Below are positions 21,903-29,261 of a stretch of 58,223 nt of DNA, piece by piece. Location of the stretch: NCBI GenBank assembly GCA_020692205.1, contig JAIMKV010000025.1:1-58223 (forward strand), written 5' to 3'. A program made the position numbers and the translations under genes. Each line of letters starts with the position of its first letter. Within the stretch, counting starts at the first letter, position 1. The DNA comes from Myxosarcina sp. GA_180221_E-2-1-MAG-40_15. Lineage in GTDB: Bacteria; Cyanobacteriota; Cyanobacteriia; Cyanobacteriales; Xenococcaceae. The notes beneath the pieces are model-generated. The model was given only the letters and a program-made list of their open reading frames with translations, ran no database searches and was not told the DNA's origin.

Positions 21903-22952
21903 ATGGAAATTATTTCTTTATTTTCAGGGTGTGGAGGATTAGATTTAGGTTTCTCCCGAGCAAAATTCAAGATTATCTGGGCAAATGAATATGATAAGTC
22001 TATTTGGAACACTTACGAATTAAATCATCCTCAAACTACTTTAGATCGCAGAGATATTAGAGATATTAATTCTTCAGAAATACCCGAATGCTTGGGAATT
22101 ATTGGCGGACCACCATGTCAAAGTTGGAGTGAAGCAGGTGCAGGCCGGGGAATTAATGATTCTCGCGGGCAATTATTTCATGACTATATCAGAATTGTTG
22201 AAGATAAACAGCCTCTTTTCTTCTTAGCTGAAAATGTTAGCGGTATTTTAGCCCAAAGACATACAAAAGCTTTTACTAATATATTAAATCAATTTAGAAA
22301 TATAGGATACGAAGTTTCTTATCAACTTTTAAATGCTAATAATTTTGGTGTTCCGCAAGATAGACGAAGAGTAATTATTGTTGGATATCATCATAAACTA
22401 GATGGTATTTTTAATTTCCCATCAGCCGTTAAGCCTGGTTTAAAAATCAAAGATGCTATATATGATTTAAGATTAATCGAACCAATTAGAATAAAAGATA
22501 AGCTTAATAAAACATGTAAAGTAGTTCCAAATCATGAATATTTAGATACAAGCTTTTCTAGTATTTACATGTCTAGAAATAGAGTGAGAAGTTGGGAAGA
22601 ACCATCTTTTACTATTCAAGCTGGAGGAAGACACGCGCCTTTACATCCTCAAGCTAATAAAATGATTTTTTTTGAGAAAGATCAAAGAATCTTTGATCCT
22701 TTATCTCTTAAGCCATATCGTCGATTATCTGTCAGAGAATGTGCCAGAATACAAACATTTGCTGATAATTTTATTTTTAAATATGACCAGATAAATAATG
22801 GCTATAAAATGGTTGGTAATGCTGTACCCGTTAATTTGGCATATATTCTAGCTCAAAAAATATTTATAGATATTCAAGAATATTTGACTACAGGAACTTG
22901 TAATAATTTACGCAAGCTGGAAGATGCCAAACAATTAACTTTGCTTAATTAA
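21903..22952 (+). CDS. Cytosine-C5 DNA methyltransferase, HaeIII-like
   Basis: A 349-residue m5C methyltransferase. Motif I is [11 protein letters not shown] (7-17), motif IV is GGPPCQSWS with catalytic Cys72, motif VI is ENVSG, motif VIII is QDRRR, motif IX is [10 protein letters not shown] and motif X is [11 protein letters not shown]. The target region [20 protein letters not shown] and the flanks closely resemble what I remember of M.HaeIII, so GGCC is the likely target. No restriction enzyme gene is adjacent, so it looks like an orphan. The gene is more AT-rich than its neighbours, suggesting transfer. Its last 18 bases overlap the dnaE-N gene tail to tail. Confidence 0.9.
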
Positions 22953-23288
22953 ATGCAGATTGCTAGTTAATACTGATACTTTCAATTCATTCGGTTTTAA
23001 TTCCAATAAATCTAAACCTTTTTCAAATATTTCATCAATAGGTAGCATTTGCCCATCAGAGGTCATAAATTTATGATCTTTAGTAGCTTTAATTGTTGCA
23101 CCATTAGCTAAAGTATATTCAAATATTTCTTGCGTACCGCGATCGTGCCATTGAACAATTGGTTGAGTATAAACAAAGCCGTGGCGATCGACACTATAAA
23201 TCGAACATTTTATTTGCGATTCGACAATTTTGCCAATAGGTAGCGCACCATACTCAACAGTATACACTTCCGTGTCATAACTTAGACA
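22935..23288 (-). other. Split DnaE intein, N-terminal half (Int-N)
   Basis: It encodes 117 residues beginning with the splicing nucleophile Cys (codon 23286-23288), with block B TKDHKF (Thr and His conserved). This length lies between the Int-N halves of Npu (about 102) and Ssp (about 123), as I recall them. The extra tail ([10 protein letters not shown]) overlaps the methyltransferase gene. Confidence 0.95.
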
Positions 23289-25667
23289 ATATTCGGCAAA
23301 TAAGACCATCTGATCGAATAGTTCGTTAGCTAATTCTTTTCTCACCCCGTTTTTAGCCGAACCATCAATAAACTTCTCCCGATGCTTTTCCATTTCGGCT
23401 AATTTCTTCTTACCCATACAGCGACGAAGTAGATCGGCTTCGCCCAACGAATAGCCTGCCAATTCTTGAGCAATTTTCATAATTTGCTCTTGATATACAA
23501 TCACGCCATAGGTTTCTTTAAGAATTGATTCTAATAAAGGATGTTGATAACTAACCTTTTCTCTGCCATGTTTGCGATTAATAAAAATTGGAATTAATCC
23601 TGCATCTAATGGTCCTGGACGATAGAGAGCGGAAATGGAGGAAATATCTTCAATACCTGAAGGTTTTAAGTCTCTGGTAATCTGCTTCATGCCATCAGAT
23701 TCTAGTTGAAAAATACCTTCTAAGTTTCCCGCACGGAACAGTTTATGAGTCTCTTGAATATCTGCTGGCAGTTTCTTTTGCTTGCCTTTAGCCATGATTT
23801 CTAAAGCTTTTTTCTCATCCAAAGGTATTTGATCTAAATCGAGAGTAATCCCTTTAGTTTTTTGAACTAAACCTGCCGCCCGTTGGATCGTCGTCAAATT
23901 TTTTAAGCCTAAAAAGTCCATTTTTAATAGACCTAAAGCTTCAATATCCTCCATATAATATTGAGTAATTACTGACCCGTCATTATTTTTTTGTAGAGGG
24001 ACAATTTCATCTAAAGGCTGGGAAGAAATTACCACGCCAGCAGCATGAACGCCAAAGGTTTTATTAGTACCTTCAATCCGAATCGCCATATCAACCCAGT
24101 TGCGAACTTTAACCGAACCAACTTCTTCTTTGTTATCGTTATAAACTTTGACGCTTTCGCTTTCGTACGCCTGTTTAAAAGCAGGTTCTGGAGTACCATC
24201 CGAGATCATCACCTGAAGTTTGGTTGGTTTACCCCGCACTACGGGAATCATCTTGGCAATACGATTTTGCTCGCCAAAGTCGATGCCTAATACCCGCCCT
24301 ACATCTTTTAATACCGCTTTAGAAGTCATGCGGTTGAAGGTAATAATTTGAGCAACGTTAGCTTCACCGTACTTGTTTGTAACGTATTTAATCATATCGC
24401 CACGGCGATCAGGACAGAAATCTGTATCCACATCAGGCATCGATTTGCGTTCGGGATTAAGAAACCGCTCAAATAATAAGCCGTGATGGATTGGATCGAT
24501 GTTAGTGATTTTAAGACAATATGCCACTAATGAACCTGCTGCGCTTCCCCTACCTGGCCCAACAGGGATTTGATTATCCCTAGCGTATTTAATATAGTCC
24601 CAAACTACCAAAAAGTAGGTGGAAAAACCTTTTTCTTGCATTACTTTGAGTTCAACCTCAAGCCGTTGCATGTATACAGGATCGACTTCGTTATGATTAC
24701 GGCATTTAAGTCTTTCGAGTAATCCTTGGCGCGTAACTTCTTCTAAATAACTATCAGCAGTATGCCCGGCAGGAACGGGATAATCTGGAATACGGGGTTC
24801 CCCTAAAATATTGTAAGGCTGAATTTTATCAGCAACTTCTAGAGTATTAGCGATCGCTTCTTCGATTACATCATCCTCTAGGTGATCGCGAAACAGCAGC
24901 CTCATCTCCGCCGCAGATTTAAGGTACTCTGTACCGCTATAGCGCAGCCTTTTGTCATCGGTAATTCGTTTCTGGGTAAGGATGCATAATAGCGCGTCAT
25001 GGGCTTCTACGTCATAGCAAGAAATAAAGTGAGAGTCGTTAGTTGCCACAATCTTAATCCCTAGTTTACGAGCAATATTGACAATTGCTACGTTCACCAT
25101 GCGATCTTCTGGCGAACCATGATCCTGAATCTCTAAGTAATAATCATCGCCAAATACATCTTGATACCATTTAGCTACCTTCTCGGCATGGGCTAAATCT
25201 CCTTTTAAAATCGCTTGGGGTACTTCTCCTCCCAAACAAGCACTAGTGACAATTAAATCTTCGTGATATTGCTTCAATAACTCTTTGTTAATACAGGGAC
25301 GAGCAAAGATACCGCTACCCTGATAGCCTTTGAGATGCGAAATAGTGGTTAGCTTGACTAAGTTTTTATATCCTTGAGTATTCTTGGCTAACACCACCTG
25401 ATGATATTTTCGGTGACGTTTTTTCTTTTCTGTAATATTGACTTCGATATCGCCATTAATTACATACATTTCATTGCCAATAATTGGCTTAATACCTTTG
25501 TTGCGACAGACTTTAATCAGTTCGATCGCCCCATACATTACCCCATGATCGGTTAGAGCGATCGCTGGCATATCTAATTCTAAAGCGCGATCGATTAACT
25601 GAGGTATTTGAGATGCACCATCGAGTAAGCTATAGTCGCTATGGATATGTAAGCCAACAAAAGACAT
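22935..25667 (-). CDS. dnaE: DNA polymerase III alpha subunit, N-terminal half with split intein DnaE-N
   Basis: A 910-residue chain. The PHP domain starts with [12 protein letters not shown] and LTDHG; the polymerase core has GRGSAAGS near 372, PDVDTDF with Asp412 and Asp414, and [11 protein letters not shown]. The extein ends at residue 793 (FAEY). Residue Cys794 starts an intein N-half of 117 residues ([36 protein letters not shown]). The chain is therefore not truncated by error: a separate dnaE-C gene elsewhere supplies the C-half and trans-splicing joins them. Confidence 0.96.
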
Positions 25668-25942: not shown

Positions 25943-26518
25943 TTATTCAGTTAGTCCACCAAATGCGCCTTTTAAAGCGGCGATCGCATCATCAGCAGCA
26001 CCCCAAATGTTAGCTTCAGGTTCTTCTCCAACTAGTTCACGCACACCATAATAGTAAATAATAGTTTTTAGCTGTTCTTGATGAGCGCGGTTTTTAAAAT
26101 TCACTTTATTAATGGGGTCAATTGATTTTTGTAGCACACCATCAGTTGCTTGTGCTGCTTTATGGATCAATAAACCTGTCATAACTAACTGGTGTTTTAA
26201 ACCTTCATGTTGCAGAATTTTTTCATACAGATCAAGCTGGGTTCCTGACATGATTTCTTCAATCTTTTGAGACATATTAGTCACTGTATCGCTTGGCTCA
26301 GAAGACACTTCTAATTCTACCATGGCTTCATCAAGCGCCGTGATACTTTTGCGATCATCTTCCAACATATCAGTGATTGCTTTAGTAGCTCTTTCATTGC
26401 CTTGGGTTGCTTGTAATAGCTTTTCTTCATTAGAAATCATCAAGTTTTGCAGCACCTTCATGTCTGCTAATTTGGTAGCGATCGCCTTTTTTTGAGTTGC
26501 ATCTAATGTAGCTGCCAT
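25943..26518 (-). CDS. Putative hemerythrin/ferritin-like four-helix-bundle protein
   Basis: A 191-residue, soluble, almost all-helical protein. Candidate metal ligands are SNEEKLLQ near 30, QHEGLKHQLVMTGLLIHKAA near 103-121 and NRAHQEQLK near 143, a His/Glu arrangement as in hemerythrin HHE or ferritin-like bundles. The full set of family ligands is not clear from reading alone. It is abundant-protein-like and has its own terminator. Function is unassigned: iron or oxygen binding is plausible. Confidence 0.5.
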   Translation of the reverse strand: MAATLDATQKKAIATKLADMKVLQNLMISNEEKLLQATQGNERATKAITDMLEDDRKSITALDEAMVELEVSSEPSDTVTNMSQKIEEIMSGTQLDLYEKILQHEGLKHQLVMTGLLIHKAAQATDGVLQKSIDPINKVNFKNRAHQEQLKTIIYYYGVRELVGEEPEANIWGAADDAIAALKGAFGGLTE

Positions 26519-26700: not shown

Positions 26701-27483
26701 TCATTGATCACTCGCTGCTTGATGAGCTTGAGGTAGCTTATACCATGGTAAATATGGATATTGATGATGTTCCCAATGATAACCAAAATGGTAACAGCTA
26801 AGAAAAGAAACCAAGACTGAATAGTTACTGCTTTTAGCTCGATGGCGATCGCTATATCCTGATTTTCTAGGGCAGTGGGGTAAAAATATGCCAAAAGTAA
26901 ATAGTTGCAGTGAACTAATGATAATTGGAATTACCCAAAACAAAAAGATGTTAGCGATAGAAATATGTAATAAAATCAAAATCCAGAAGATAATTGTCAT
27001 GCCCCAAAACAAAATCCAAAACTGCCTACCCTTTTGATAATCTTGCATAAAGCTGATGTACCAAAGTAGAAAGTTATGTGGATTTGCAGCATAAAAATCT
27101 GGATCTTGTTCGCTAGCAGGGTAATTGTGATGCAGCCGATGATTTGTGGCTAGTGTTTGATAAGGCAAGATGGCATATAAGAACGAAGCAAGATAGCCCA
27201 TCAAATTGTTGATCTGCTTATTTTGGCAAACTACACCGTGGATCGCATCGTGAATGATGATAAATATTCCTGTGTGCAAGAAAACTCTTAACCACATTGC
27301 TAAGATAATCAAGATCACAGGCAGATGGTTGAGATCTAGCTTTAACAAGCCGACCAAACTTACTGACCAAAGAACTATAATTGTAATGGCGATCGCCATG
27401 CTAAACCAAGAATTGGTTTTAGTCTTGAATAAGATTGAATTAGGTTCACCAACTATGGGTAGACTGATTTTAGCTGGCGACAT
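26701..27483 (-). CDS. crtW: Beta-carotene ketolase, CrtW family
   Basis: A 260-residue integral-membrane di-iron oxygenase of the fatty-acid-desaturase fold. The three His boxes are HDAIHG (78-83), HRLHH (115-119) and HFGYHWEHHQYP (about 233-244), the set shared with Nostoc CrtW as I recall it. It adds keto groups to beta-carotene to make echinenone or canthaxanthin, which is needed for example by orange carotenoid protein. Its first 14 bases overlap the end of the cytochrome b6-like gene, so the two are translationally coupled. CrtW normally takes electrons from ferredoxin. Confidence 0.9.
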   Translation of the reverse strand: MSPAKISLPIVGEPNSILFKTKTNSWFSMAIAITIIVLWSVSLVGLLKLDLNHLPVILIILAMWLRVFLHTGIFIIIHDAIHGVVCQNKQINNLMGYLASFLYAILPYQTLATNHRLHHNYPASEQDPDFYAANPHNFLLWYISFMQDYQKGRQFWILFWGMTIIFWILILLHISIANIFLFWVIPIIISSLQLFTFGIFLPHCPRKSGYSDRHRAKSSNYSVLVSFLSCYHFGYHWEHHQYPYLPWYKLPQAHQAASDQ

Positions 27484-28141
27484 TTTCTGCCTTAGCCTGG
27501 GGATCTTGAGTAGACATTGATGTCAGTAATTTTTTCAACTTTTGAAGTCTTAAACCTTTCAATTCTTGTTCTTGAATGGTCAAAGCGACTAGGTGAATTA
27601 CAGATAAAGAGATCGCCACTACGGATAAAATATAGCCATGAATGGTGTAGAAATGGACAATTGTACTGGTATTGATCCCACCACCTCCAGTGAGGATATT
27701 TTTAATTGTTTGTCCGACTAGAGGAATGGCAGCGATCGTTCCTAGTTCAACTTTCAAACGCCAAAAGCCTAGCTGAGTCCAAGCAAGAATCATTGCTGTC
27801 CAACCCAAACCAATAGTGGATAAGGTTAAAACAATCCCGCTAATCCAGGCAGTGAGCCAACTACGTTTAAACTGTCTGCCTAAAAACATCACAACTAGCT
27901 GAACCAAAGAAACTATAATAATTCCATTCCCTGCCCAATTGTGTAGTCCATAGATTAGTGTTCCTTGTGGTACGTCTTCAACAATTGTGGCGAGAGATTT
28001 GTAGGCATTTCCTGCTGCTGGTTCATAATAAAATCCAATTAATATACCTGATACAGCTGCAATAATTGCCAGGGTTAAAATTGCTACAGATAAAATAGTT
28101 GCACTTCGTCGTAAGATGAAGCTGTATTGTAGAGAAGTCAT
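27470..28141 (-). CDS. Cytochrome b6-like membrane protein
   Basis: A 223-residue four-helix cytochrome b N-domain. Against cyanobacterial PetB, His67, His168 and His183 fit three of the four heme ligands (b6 H86, H187, H202), but the fourth (b6 H100) is Gln81. The PetB heme-c Cys is not evident either. The PetB-like segment WTQLGFWRLKV corresponds to the quinone-side W-D-Q-V-G-Y-W motif. It lies between hli and crtW on the same strand and overlaps crtW. It is thus unlikely to be the main cytochrome b6f subunit. It may be a specialised electron carrier, possibly to the ketolase (guess). Confidence 0.8.
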   Translation of the reverse strand: MTSLQYSFILRRSATILSVAILTLAIIAAVSGILIGFYYEPAAGNAYKSLATIVEDVPQGTLIYGLHNWAGNGIIIVSLVQLVVMFLGRQFKRSWLTAWISGIVLTLSTIGLGWTAMILAWTQLGFWRLKVELGTIAAIPLVGQTIKNILTGGGGINTSTIVHFYTIHGYILSVVAISLSVIHLVALTIQEQELKGLRLQKLKKLLTSMSTQDPQAKAENVAS

Positions 28142-28308
28142 TTATTGTTGTGTGCTAGCGAATCTATTAGATTTAATTGCAAAAAAATAAGAGATTTCAG
28201 TCAAATTAAACTTTGATTAACTTACTTTCTCTTAACTTTTTGTTTGAGTTAAATATTAATAGCCAATCCCAACTGTAAAATAATCGAATTAGCTAAATAA
28301 ATGCCTGG

Positions 28309-28458
28309 TTACATAATACCTAATTGTCCAAGGATGCCTTGACCAGTAGCCATTTCTACCACAATAGCGGAGACGAACCCAATCATTGCTAGACGGCCAT
28401 TCCATAGTTCAGCGAATCGAGTAAATCCTAGTTTTGGTTCGGGTGTTTGAGCTTGCAT
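28309..28458 (-). CDS. High-light-inducible protein (Hlip, one-helix CAB-like)
   Basis: A 49-residue protein with the CAB/Hlip signature: [20 protein letters not shown] contains the E-x-x-N-G-R-x-A-M-I-G-F chlorophyll-binding motif and one membrane helix. Hlips bind chlorophyll and carotenoid and quench excess energy near Photosystem II assembly. It starts at 28458 and lies upstream of an HLR1-like promoter box. It precedes the cytochrome b6-like gene on the same strand by 167 bases. Confidence 0.93.
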
Positions 28459-28511
28459 ATTATTAGACCTCGTTAAAGTTAAACCTTACTTATTGCTAGT
28501 TGCTTATTTAC

Positions 28512-28529
28512 AATGTAACGAAATGTTAT
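28512..28529 (-). promoter_or_regulatory. HLR1-like RpaB box upstream of hli
   Basis: On the minus strand ATAACATT-N2-GTTACATT fits the HLR1 pattern (G/T)TTACA(T/A)(T/A)-N2-(G/T)TTACA(T/A)(T/A): the distal half matches 6 of 8 and the proximal half 8 of 8, spaced exactly 10 bases apart. HLR1 is bound by RpaB and controls high-light genes such as hli. It lies about 54 bases before the ATG. Confidence 0.65.
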
Positions 28530-28670
28530 GTTGTAAAACTCTATCATAAGTAGTATTGTTTAAACAACCTAAATGTTCAATCAGAACAGTTTTAGAAGGC
28601 GTGTTCTCGACTTCATGATTACTACCGAACCTGATATCATTTATATACTCAAAAGTGATCGCCAAAACCA

Positions 28671-28699
28671 AAAAAAGGGTCAGCATTGCCAACCCTTTT
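28671..28699 (-). terminator. Rho-independent terminator of the BON lipoprotein gene
   Basis: On the minus strand AAAAGGGT...ACCCTTTT forms a stem with GC-rich inner pairs (GGGTTGGC with GCTGACCC), followed by TTTTTTT. It sits about 26 bases after the stop at 28725. Confidence 0.85.
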
Positions 28700-28724
28700 G
28701 TACATATTTCAGTTAGTTAACCTC

Positions 28725-29192
28725 TTAAGATTCAGCTGGAGGCACAACTTTCACGTCCCTAATAATTACTTCATTAACTCCTTGGATTTCCTGTGCCAAA
28801 GGCACAATACTGTCATAATCTTGCTGGTTAGGAACTGTACCCACAATTATTACGCGACCATTTTCAGCTTCTACAGTTAACTGGCCTTGAGTAATATTAG
28901 CTTCTAACTTAGCTCTAACTTGACTTTGAAGATCAGAGTCGGCTCTCGCTTGTTCGTCGTCTCCGAAAACCTCGTCGCGCTCTTCTCTAGCGCGAATATC
29001 GGCATCTAACTGCTCCCGACGAACTTCGCTAGTAGCATCGTCTTGAGTTGCTTCAACTTGAGTGGGGTCGTCAACTTGCGCACCTTCTTCAACAGTGGTA
29101 GGAGCATCACCGCTAGTTCTAGCAACGTCATCGCAACCGACTCCAGCAAACAGTAATGTACCGCTGAGGACTAATAATGTTAGTTTGTTCAT
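28725..29192 (-). CDS. BON-domain lipoprotein
   Basis: A 155-residue protein with a signal peptide ending in a lipobox (LLFAGVGC, Cys20). After an acidic charged linker, residues 85-150 form a BON domain (LQSQVRAKLEANITQGQL, VEAENGRVIIVGTV, EIQGVNEVIIRDVKVV). BON proteins such as OsmY bind phospholipids and stabilise envelopes in osmotic stress. Its terminator at 28671 separates it from hli. Confidence 0.88.
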   Translation of the reverse strand: MNKLTLLVLSGTLLFAGVGCDDVARTSGDAPTTVEEGAQVDDPTQVEATQDDATSEVRREQLDADIRAREERDEVFGDDEQARADSDLQSQVRAKLEANITQGQLTVEAENGRVIIVGTVPNQQDYDSIVPLAQEIQGVNEVIIRDVKVVPPAES

Positions 29193-29261
29193 TTTGTTTT
29201 TGATTTAATTAATGTTTAGTTTGTTAGTCTGGGACACTATAATTTATAGTTAAAAGTGTTT

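Follow-up and report, generated by a model that had tools for sequence, protein, structure and literature searches.

A 58,223-nucleotide contig of Myxosarcina sp. GA_180221_E-2-1-MAG-40_15 (Cyanobacteriota, Xenococcaceae; JAIMKV010000025.1, contig 15 of a 4.87 Mb genome in 131 contigs), hereafter the window, carries on its minus strand three consecutive genes encoding a one-helix Hlip, a paralogue of cytochrome b6 (PetB), and a divergent carotenoid ketolase (CrtW). The locus is tentatively interpreted as a light-stress-linked ketocarotenoid unit, the core of which would consist of the PetB-derived membrane protein and CrtW, the former acting as a dedicated membrane haem partner of the latter; this interpretation falls somewhat short of being probable. 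It is likely that the cytochrome-like protein and CrtW form a functional pair. What the sequences show directly is how the genes are arranged, that this arrangement persists while the flanks change, that the two genes co-occur across the phylum, that haem ligands of the cytochrome-like protein are altered, that the genome has no second match to PetD, and that hli has decayed in one clade.

The cluster is led by hli (positions 28309–28458), which encodes a 49-residue one-helix Hlip with the 13-letter motif, taken to be HliC-like. A gap of 167 bases (28142–28308) separates it from the cytochrome-b6-like gene (27470–28141; 223 residues), the end of which overlaps the start of crtW (26701–27483; 260 residues) by 14 bases (27470–27483). 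All three products score above the Pfam cut-offs: the Hlip with 27.5 bits for PF00504 (cut-off 22.3), the cytochrome-like protein with 91.1 bits for PF00033 (27.2) and 62.6 for PF13631 (27.0), and CrtW with 89.5 bits for PF00487 (29.7). The initial annotation had described this same-strand arrangement with its overlap and gap, and its coordinates were found to be exact. The overlap likely couples the translation of the cytochrome-like gene and crtW. Relatives are designated below by their genome (G) or locus (L) numbers. The distance from the cytochrome stop to the crtW start is −14 bases in G406, −20 in G404, +33 in G409, +18 in both G402 and G399, +17 in G403, and +96 in G407 when counted from the first listed start. 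As judged from the sequence, the overlap or short gap supports cotranscription of the pair.

Gene order was checked in 27 genomes of the same family, including 13 of the same genus. An operon-type cytochrome gene was found in eight of the 13 (68–100% identity), and the order and orientation of the cluster are kept in all eight, which bears out the grouping. In each of them crtW adjoins the cytochrome gene on the same strand (it is cut by the contig end in G407). In the other five genomes of the genus, two of which (G405 and G408) are only 81–82% complete, neither the cytochrome gene nor crtW was found. The surroundings are variable: within flanks of up to 6 kb, which are short in G407 and G402, 21 of the 28 pairs of operon loci have no common gene on the same side, and the window has three flanking genes in common with G406 and a single one with G404, and shares none with any of the remaining five. 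The arrangement could have been inherited from a single ancestral juxtaposition devoid of functional meaning, as both the operon cytochrome and the operon crtW look single-origin within one genus. The large divergence, with synonymous divergence (dS) above 1 in several pairs, and the persistence of the intact pair in eight genomes where most other neighbours differ make this explanation very improbable. No account of a cluster of crtW with an Hlip or cytochrome gene was found among the matches listed from the open-access literature.

The cytochrome-like protein belongs to a family of PetB paralogues present at 32 places in 31 of 386 genomes of the phylum, the source genome included, with identities of at least 53% and E values of at most 1e-63. 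Canonical PetB is set off by a wide gap in these genomes (about 30% identity, E of 1e-30 or weaker). When one genome per species was scanned, 451 stretches were found to encode a relative of the cytochrome. The best 80 of these 451 constitute the named loci; 79 are in cyanobacterial records and one is in a metagenome-assembled genome (MAG) labelled Gracilibacteria, and the nearest named relatives are a Pleurocapsa and a Hyellaceae MAG. The phylum and named sets overlap, L112 being apparently G386. No description or function of the family was found among the matches listed from the open-access literature. In a quick tree with long branches, comprising 68 rows chosen from 112 distinct paralogues plus four PetBs, the operon cytochromes fall under one node (SH-aLRT 98) that also includes the long-branch row L038 and the broken duplicate L138.

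The AlphaFold model of the cytochrome-like protein (pLDDT 88.3, from 49 sequences) finds cytochrome b6 as its best Foldseek match in the PDB (1q90_B, TM 0.71/0.75, root-mean-square deviation 2.0). The resemblance to the cytochrome b6 of the b6f complex, with about 30% identity and a TM of about 0.7, extends to the His86/His187 pair, His202, and the WxQxG(Y/F)W motif, whereas His100 is replaced and Cys35 and Arg207 are lost (numbered as in M. laminosus cytochrome b6). In the window protein, H67, H168 and H183 are present, Q81 occupies the position of His100, a threonine that of Arg207, and there is no cysteine in the whole sequence. Among the 112 distinct family members, the position of His86 is occupied by His in 110 and Tyr in two, that of His187 by His in 104 and Asn in seven with one gap, and that of His202 by His in 108 and Asn in three with one gap. 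The position of His100 is held by Gln in 104, Glu in seven and Asp in one, and never by His. The column of Cys35 is a gap in all 49 aligned members, only one of which has a cysteine within four columns; nine of the 49 have some cysteine in their first 45 residues. The column of Arg207 contains no Arg (Leu 27, Val 10, Ile 8, and Thr, Phe, Met and a gap once each). The p-side site thus appears to be kept and the n-side site altered, and a covalent haem c_n is not expected. Besides the paralogue, the genome encodes a normal petB on contig 129, with petD after it. The petD next to this petB is the only match to PF00032 in the genome, which together with the lost ligands rules out a second b6f complex.

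A few members of the family have particular features. A further haem ligand is lost in several, of Nostocales type where named (His187 to Asn in seven, His202 to Asn in three, and His86 to Tyr in two); the members concerned are L017, L057, L059, L063, L074, L089 and L098; L088, L103 and L105; and L006. It looks as though parts of the family were abandoning haem binding. In the branch formed by L080, L112, L181 and L182 (Symploca, Hyella and a relative), the N-terminus is much extended, with frames of 312–335 residues, and the cytochrome genes come after a gene of about 110 residues resembling, by eye, a PadR-type regulator. In G404, a second operon-type copy (L180, contig 221, 5562–6083) is interrupted by a stop codon, with no match to crtW or hli on its 6.5 kb contig. 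The ExtP b-type cytochrome model (NF040969) and that of cytochrome b6 give similar scores with the window protein (113.8 and 114.3 bits), which is far under the ExtP cut-off of 290; no selenite or tellurite gene was recognised with Pfam and NCBIfam among the six annotated genes of the window.

The altered n-side site offers another reading, in which the cytochrome-like protein would be a haem enzyme acting on a carotenoid in series with CrtW, through a five-coordinate site made of His202 and a distal Gln or Glu. This is distinctly improbable. The residues would fit, with His at the His202 position in 108 and Gln, Glu or Asp at the His100 position in all 112 members, and the n-side site faces the side where CrtW should act. 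On the other hand, haem occupancy of the n-side is putative, and the cytochrome b6 fold is not known to have a catalytic precedent. A precedent in carotenoid synthesis is the 15-cis-zeta-carotene isomerase Z-ISO, described as a membrane haem-b enzyme in the available part of PMC9505123; it belongs to a different protein family, and no homology is claimed.

The best NCBIfam match of the window CrtW is the CrtW equivalog NF045690, with 272 bits for a cut-off of 350. The same model gives 276.5 bits with G406 and 295.7 with G394; among four CrtW stretches of other lineages, two pass (388 and 365) and two remain below the cut-off (330 and 276). The histidines of the boxes are invariant in the nine aligned proteins (window, six other operons, G394 and G395), and the window protein is predicted to be a membrane di-iron beta-carotene 4-ketolase. 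It shares the histidine boxes with cyanobacterial CrtWs and differs from them by its score below the curated cut-off and by its place in the tree, where the operon CrtWs form one group (support 99/97) that adjoins those of G394 and G395 and stands apart from a 28-row group containing the CrtWs of family f6. No relative of crtW was found in viral contigs, and no sequence of the PDB matched CrtW. CrtW is not the sole ketolase of the genome, as two CrtO ketolases encoded elsewhere score above the cut-off of 1000 (1013.8 and 1068.6 bits); PF13450, by which both were reached, is far too general a route. The window CrtW is therefore an extra ketolase and probably not the general source of ketocarotenoids. 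Genes of the OCP type are also present. PMC2288588 reports ferredoxin as the donor of carotene hydroxylases, which are of the same iron type; its accessible passages make no statement on the electron donor of CrtW.

The less constant gene of the cluster is hli. A frame is found upstream of the cytochrome gene in all eight operons; its product is 84–98% identical in G404, G406, G407 and G409, and is degenerate, with the motif lost or the gene truncated, in G399, G402 and G403. The ratio of nonsynonymous to synonymous divergence (dN/dS) of hli, calculated on 117–147 sites, is 0.02–0.13 among intact pairs, 0.60 for G402/G403 (L176/L177, 117 sites), 0.33 for G407/G402 (L173/L176), and 0.10 for the window and G402 (L176), where dS is saturated. 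In the clade where hli decays, dN/dS is 0.14–0.16 for the cytochrome gene and 0.23–0.25 for crtW, both of which are still constrained. As G399, G402 and G403 group together in the cytochrome tree (support 97), the decay was probably one event; these genomes retain other hli genes. Three genomes thus keep the cytochrome gene, crtW and the promoter block while their hli decays, which makes the cytochrome and the ketolase the core of the cluster. The proposal of a photoprotection operon agrees with the presence of the Hlip and of a partial HLR1 box, but hli is not an essential part of it, being truncated or devoid of its motif in three of the eight operons, all in one clade.

Another possibility is that the Hlip and the cytochrome-like protein act as a pigment-binding scaffold. 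They would bind the ketocarotenoid produced by CrtW, along with chlorophyll or haem, and serve as a membrane quencher or assembly factor without electron transfer. The carotenoid of the b6f complex is not known to be held mainly by cytochrome b6, and His86, His187 and His202 are otherwise strongly kept. In addition, the cytochrome remains constrained in the three of eight operons where hli has decayed. In favour of a scaffold are the Hlip gene in the same cluster, the lack of a haem ligand in some family members, and the enrichment in echinenone of the isolated Synechocystis b6f reported in the part of PMC9342900 that was available. On balance, a scaffold is improbable.

A candidate HLR1-type (RpaB) box precedes hli on the minus strand, with the sequence ATAACATTTCGTTACATT at positions 28529–28512. 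It has two mismatches to the consensus KTTACAWW-N2-KTTACAWW, which is given in the available part of PMC13421787, together with the repression in low light by an HLR1 box overlapping the transcription start (−38 to +23). In the whole window, on both strands, five matches have two mismatches and 28 have three, which rules out window-wide significance. The chance expectation per 200-base upstream strand is about 0.008 matches with two mismatches, and 0.05 when those with two and three are pooled; a box at this particular position is thus beyond chance, unlike a match somewhere in the window. G406 has the identical 18-mer and G404 one with three mismatches; four to five forward-strand mismatches are found in the other five operons. 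In G409, a two-mismatch match lies on the opposite strand inside the same upstream block. The box noticed in the initial annotation is thus a two-mismatch match before hli that is poorly conserved among the operons. What is kept in all eight, as the alignment indicates, is a block at 28512–28547 (minus strand) comprising TGATAGAG and the TTNGTTA core of the HLR1 region. Both TGATAGAG and TTNGTTANNTT are common to the eight upstream regions, including those with a decayed hli. A simple promoter scan gave nothing convincing, with four sites for 8.0 expected by shuffling. As with the Hlip/Scp genes under HLR1-RpaB control described in the literature, a one-helix Hlip follows an HLR1-like box; the differences are that cytochrome and ketolase genes come next, that the box is poorly conserved, and that some of the operons have a decayed hli.

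Between hli and the cytochrome gene, an inverted repeat followed by seven T (28180–28242, minus strand) could form a terminator- or attenuator-like hairpin. The repeat and its T-run are kept in the five operons with an intact hli; G402 and G403 lack them, and G399 retains an eroded form (z 0.96). When folding was compared with that of shuffled sequences, z values were −2.36 for the window, −1.34 for G406, −2.01 for G407, −0.28 for G409 and −3.15 for G404, that is z ≤ −2 in three of the five operons with an intact hli. The hairpin was not reported by a terminator scan, the rules of which admit short loops only. This arrangement suggests that transcripts can stop after hli or read through into the cytochrome gene and crtW. 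The assignment of hli to the same operon is thereby qualified, as it may be partly a separate unit. The cytochrome gene and crtW would be expressed from the hli promoter or by read-through from it, and where hli has decayed, the promoter presumably serves the pair alone.

A shared promoter could be all that links the two genes. Both would then serve a light-stress programme, one for the redox poise of thylakoids and the other for the supply of ketocarotenoids, through a common light-responsive promoter and without biochemical contact. The upstream block kept in all eight operons, even where hli decays, speaks for such co-regulation, as does the occurrence of CrtW without the cytochrome in many genomes. 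Outside the genus, moreover, the family is not beside crtW in the loci examined, and its commonest neighbours are others: upstream an alpha/beta hydrolase gene (45 of the best 80 of 451 loci, median gap 108 bases), downstream a converging Na/H exchanger gene (41 of the same 80). However, the pair is jointly present or absent in the genus (eight genomes with both, five with neither), and the two genes co-occur in the phylum even where they are not adjacent. Co-regulation without contact is possible, if rather unlikely. In the loci L033–L112, mostly from Nostocales, frames recognised by eye include a cytochrome c6-type protein (31 loci), plastocyanin (30) and a cytochrome c550-type protein (28). 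These recurrent frames are a possible hint at lumenal electron partners.

Co-occurrence was tabulated for 129 of the 386 phylum genomes, or 186 with family f25, 200 genomes, nearly all of which belong to other classes of the phylum, being left out; one of these, G035, has crtW, and no family-type match there is among the matches listed. Without f25, 23 of the genomes with the cytochrome have crtW and eight do not, to be compared with 22 and 76 of those without the cytochrome (p = 3e-7). Inclusion of f25, with 57 genomes, 25 of which have crtW and none the cytochrome, gives 23 and 8 versus 47 and 108 (p = 7e-6). When genomes are collapsed by genus, the numbers are 15 and 5 versus 16 and 35 (p = 0.001). 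Within family f6 they are 17 and 7 versus 1 and 17, or 10 and 4 versus 1 and 8 by genus (p = 0.007), and 6 and 2 versus 1 and 13 in the size-matched part of f6 (4.9–6.1 Mb, 22 of 42 genomes; p = 0.002). CrtW without the cytochrome is the commoner exception and the cytochrome without CrtW the rarer.

Several observations weigh against a ketolase with a dedicated haem partner. The p values are only partly corrected for shared descent and habitat, and the incompleteness of G405 and G408 weakens the count of absences in the genus. A crtW match at E 1e-20 is missing in eight of the 31 phylum genomes bearing the family, and 22 genomes (47 with f25) have crtW without a family member, which means that CrtW does not generally need the cytochrome. 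Among the members of the same family that belong to other genera, the cytochrome occurs alone in G386 and G392, and crtW alone in G394, G395 and G389. None of 29 further loci of the family in the phylum has a match to crtW or hli within 1.5 kb. The triad occurs in two of the best 80 of 451 named loci, several of which are short; these two, L033 and L034, are apparently G402 and G403. In one other of these 80 loci, crtW is 6.4 kb away on the other strand. Judging from the sequences with a lost His86, His187 or His202, haem binding may be dispensable in some members of the family. Finally, the kept bis-His site is lumenal, on the p-side, and the desaturase-type di-iron site of the ketolase faces the cytoplasm. 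By this topology, the retained haem site is on the side of the membrane opposite to that expected of a simple electron donor to CrtW. The electron supply to CrtW put forward in the initial annotation is thus unsupported as it was stated; a role of this kind is possible.

Under the interpretation of a dedicated haem partner, a duplicated PetB would have left the b6f complex, with no subunit IV of its own and without the cysteine of haem c_n or the His100 ligand, and would have retained the p-side bis-His site and His202. Bound to haem and in contact with CrtW, it would pass electrons between plastoquinone or a lumenal carrier side and the ketolase, the direction of flow being presumed; alternatively, it would tie the activity of the ketolase to the redox state of the electron chain. 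On the n-side, His202 would be opposite Gln or Glu, and a haem there, if any, would be unusual and could face CrtW. The whole would be cotranscribed, perhaps under the control of RpaB.

The gene following crtW (25943–26518, minus strand) encodes 191 residues, for which neither a Pfam family above the cut-off nor a convincing PDB match was found. It was rejected as a member of the unit: it adjoins crtW in the window, G406 and G404, but a 72% identical relative in G409 lies about 2 Mb off. A paralogue is found on contig 76 of G000 near 28680–29240 (L229:171–740), with another hli at a distance of about 1.4 kb and a CrtO gene at about 3 kb. Many other genomes have the matching sequence within an open frame of some 350 residues. 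Further along, a frame of 910 residues (22935–25667, minus strand) looks like the N-terminal part of DnaE ending in the N-half of a split intein.

The operon gives a concrete partner to a paralogue family that is present in 31 of 386 genomes of the phylum and for which no described function was found. It is possible, and somewhat doubtful, that a duplicated cytochrome b6 was recruited as a redox or catalytic partner of a ketolase, wiring ketocarotenoid synthesis to the plastoquinone or lumenal chain under light stress. The locus bears on the identity of the electron donor of membrane di-iron carotenoid ketolases in vivo. Should the link prove true, the photosynthetic redox state and photoprotection by ketocarotenoids would be coupled by one membrane protein.

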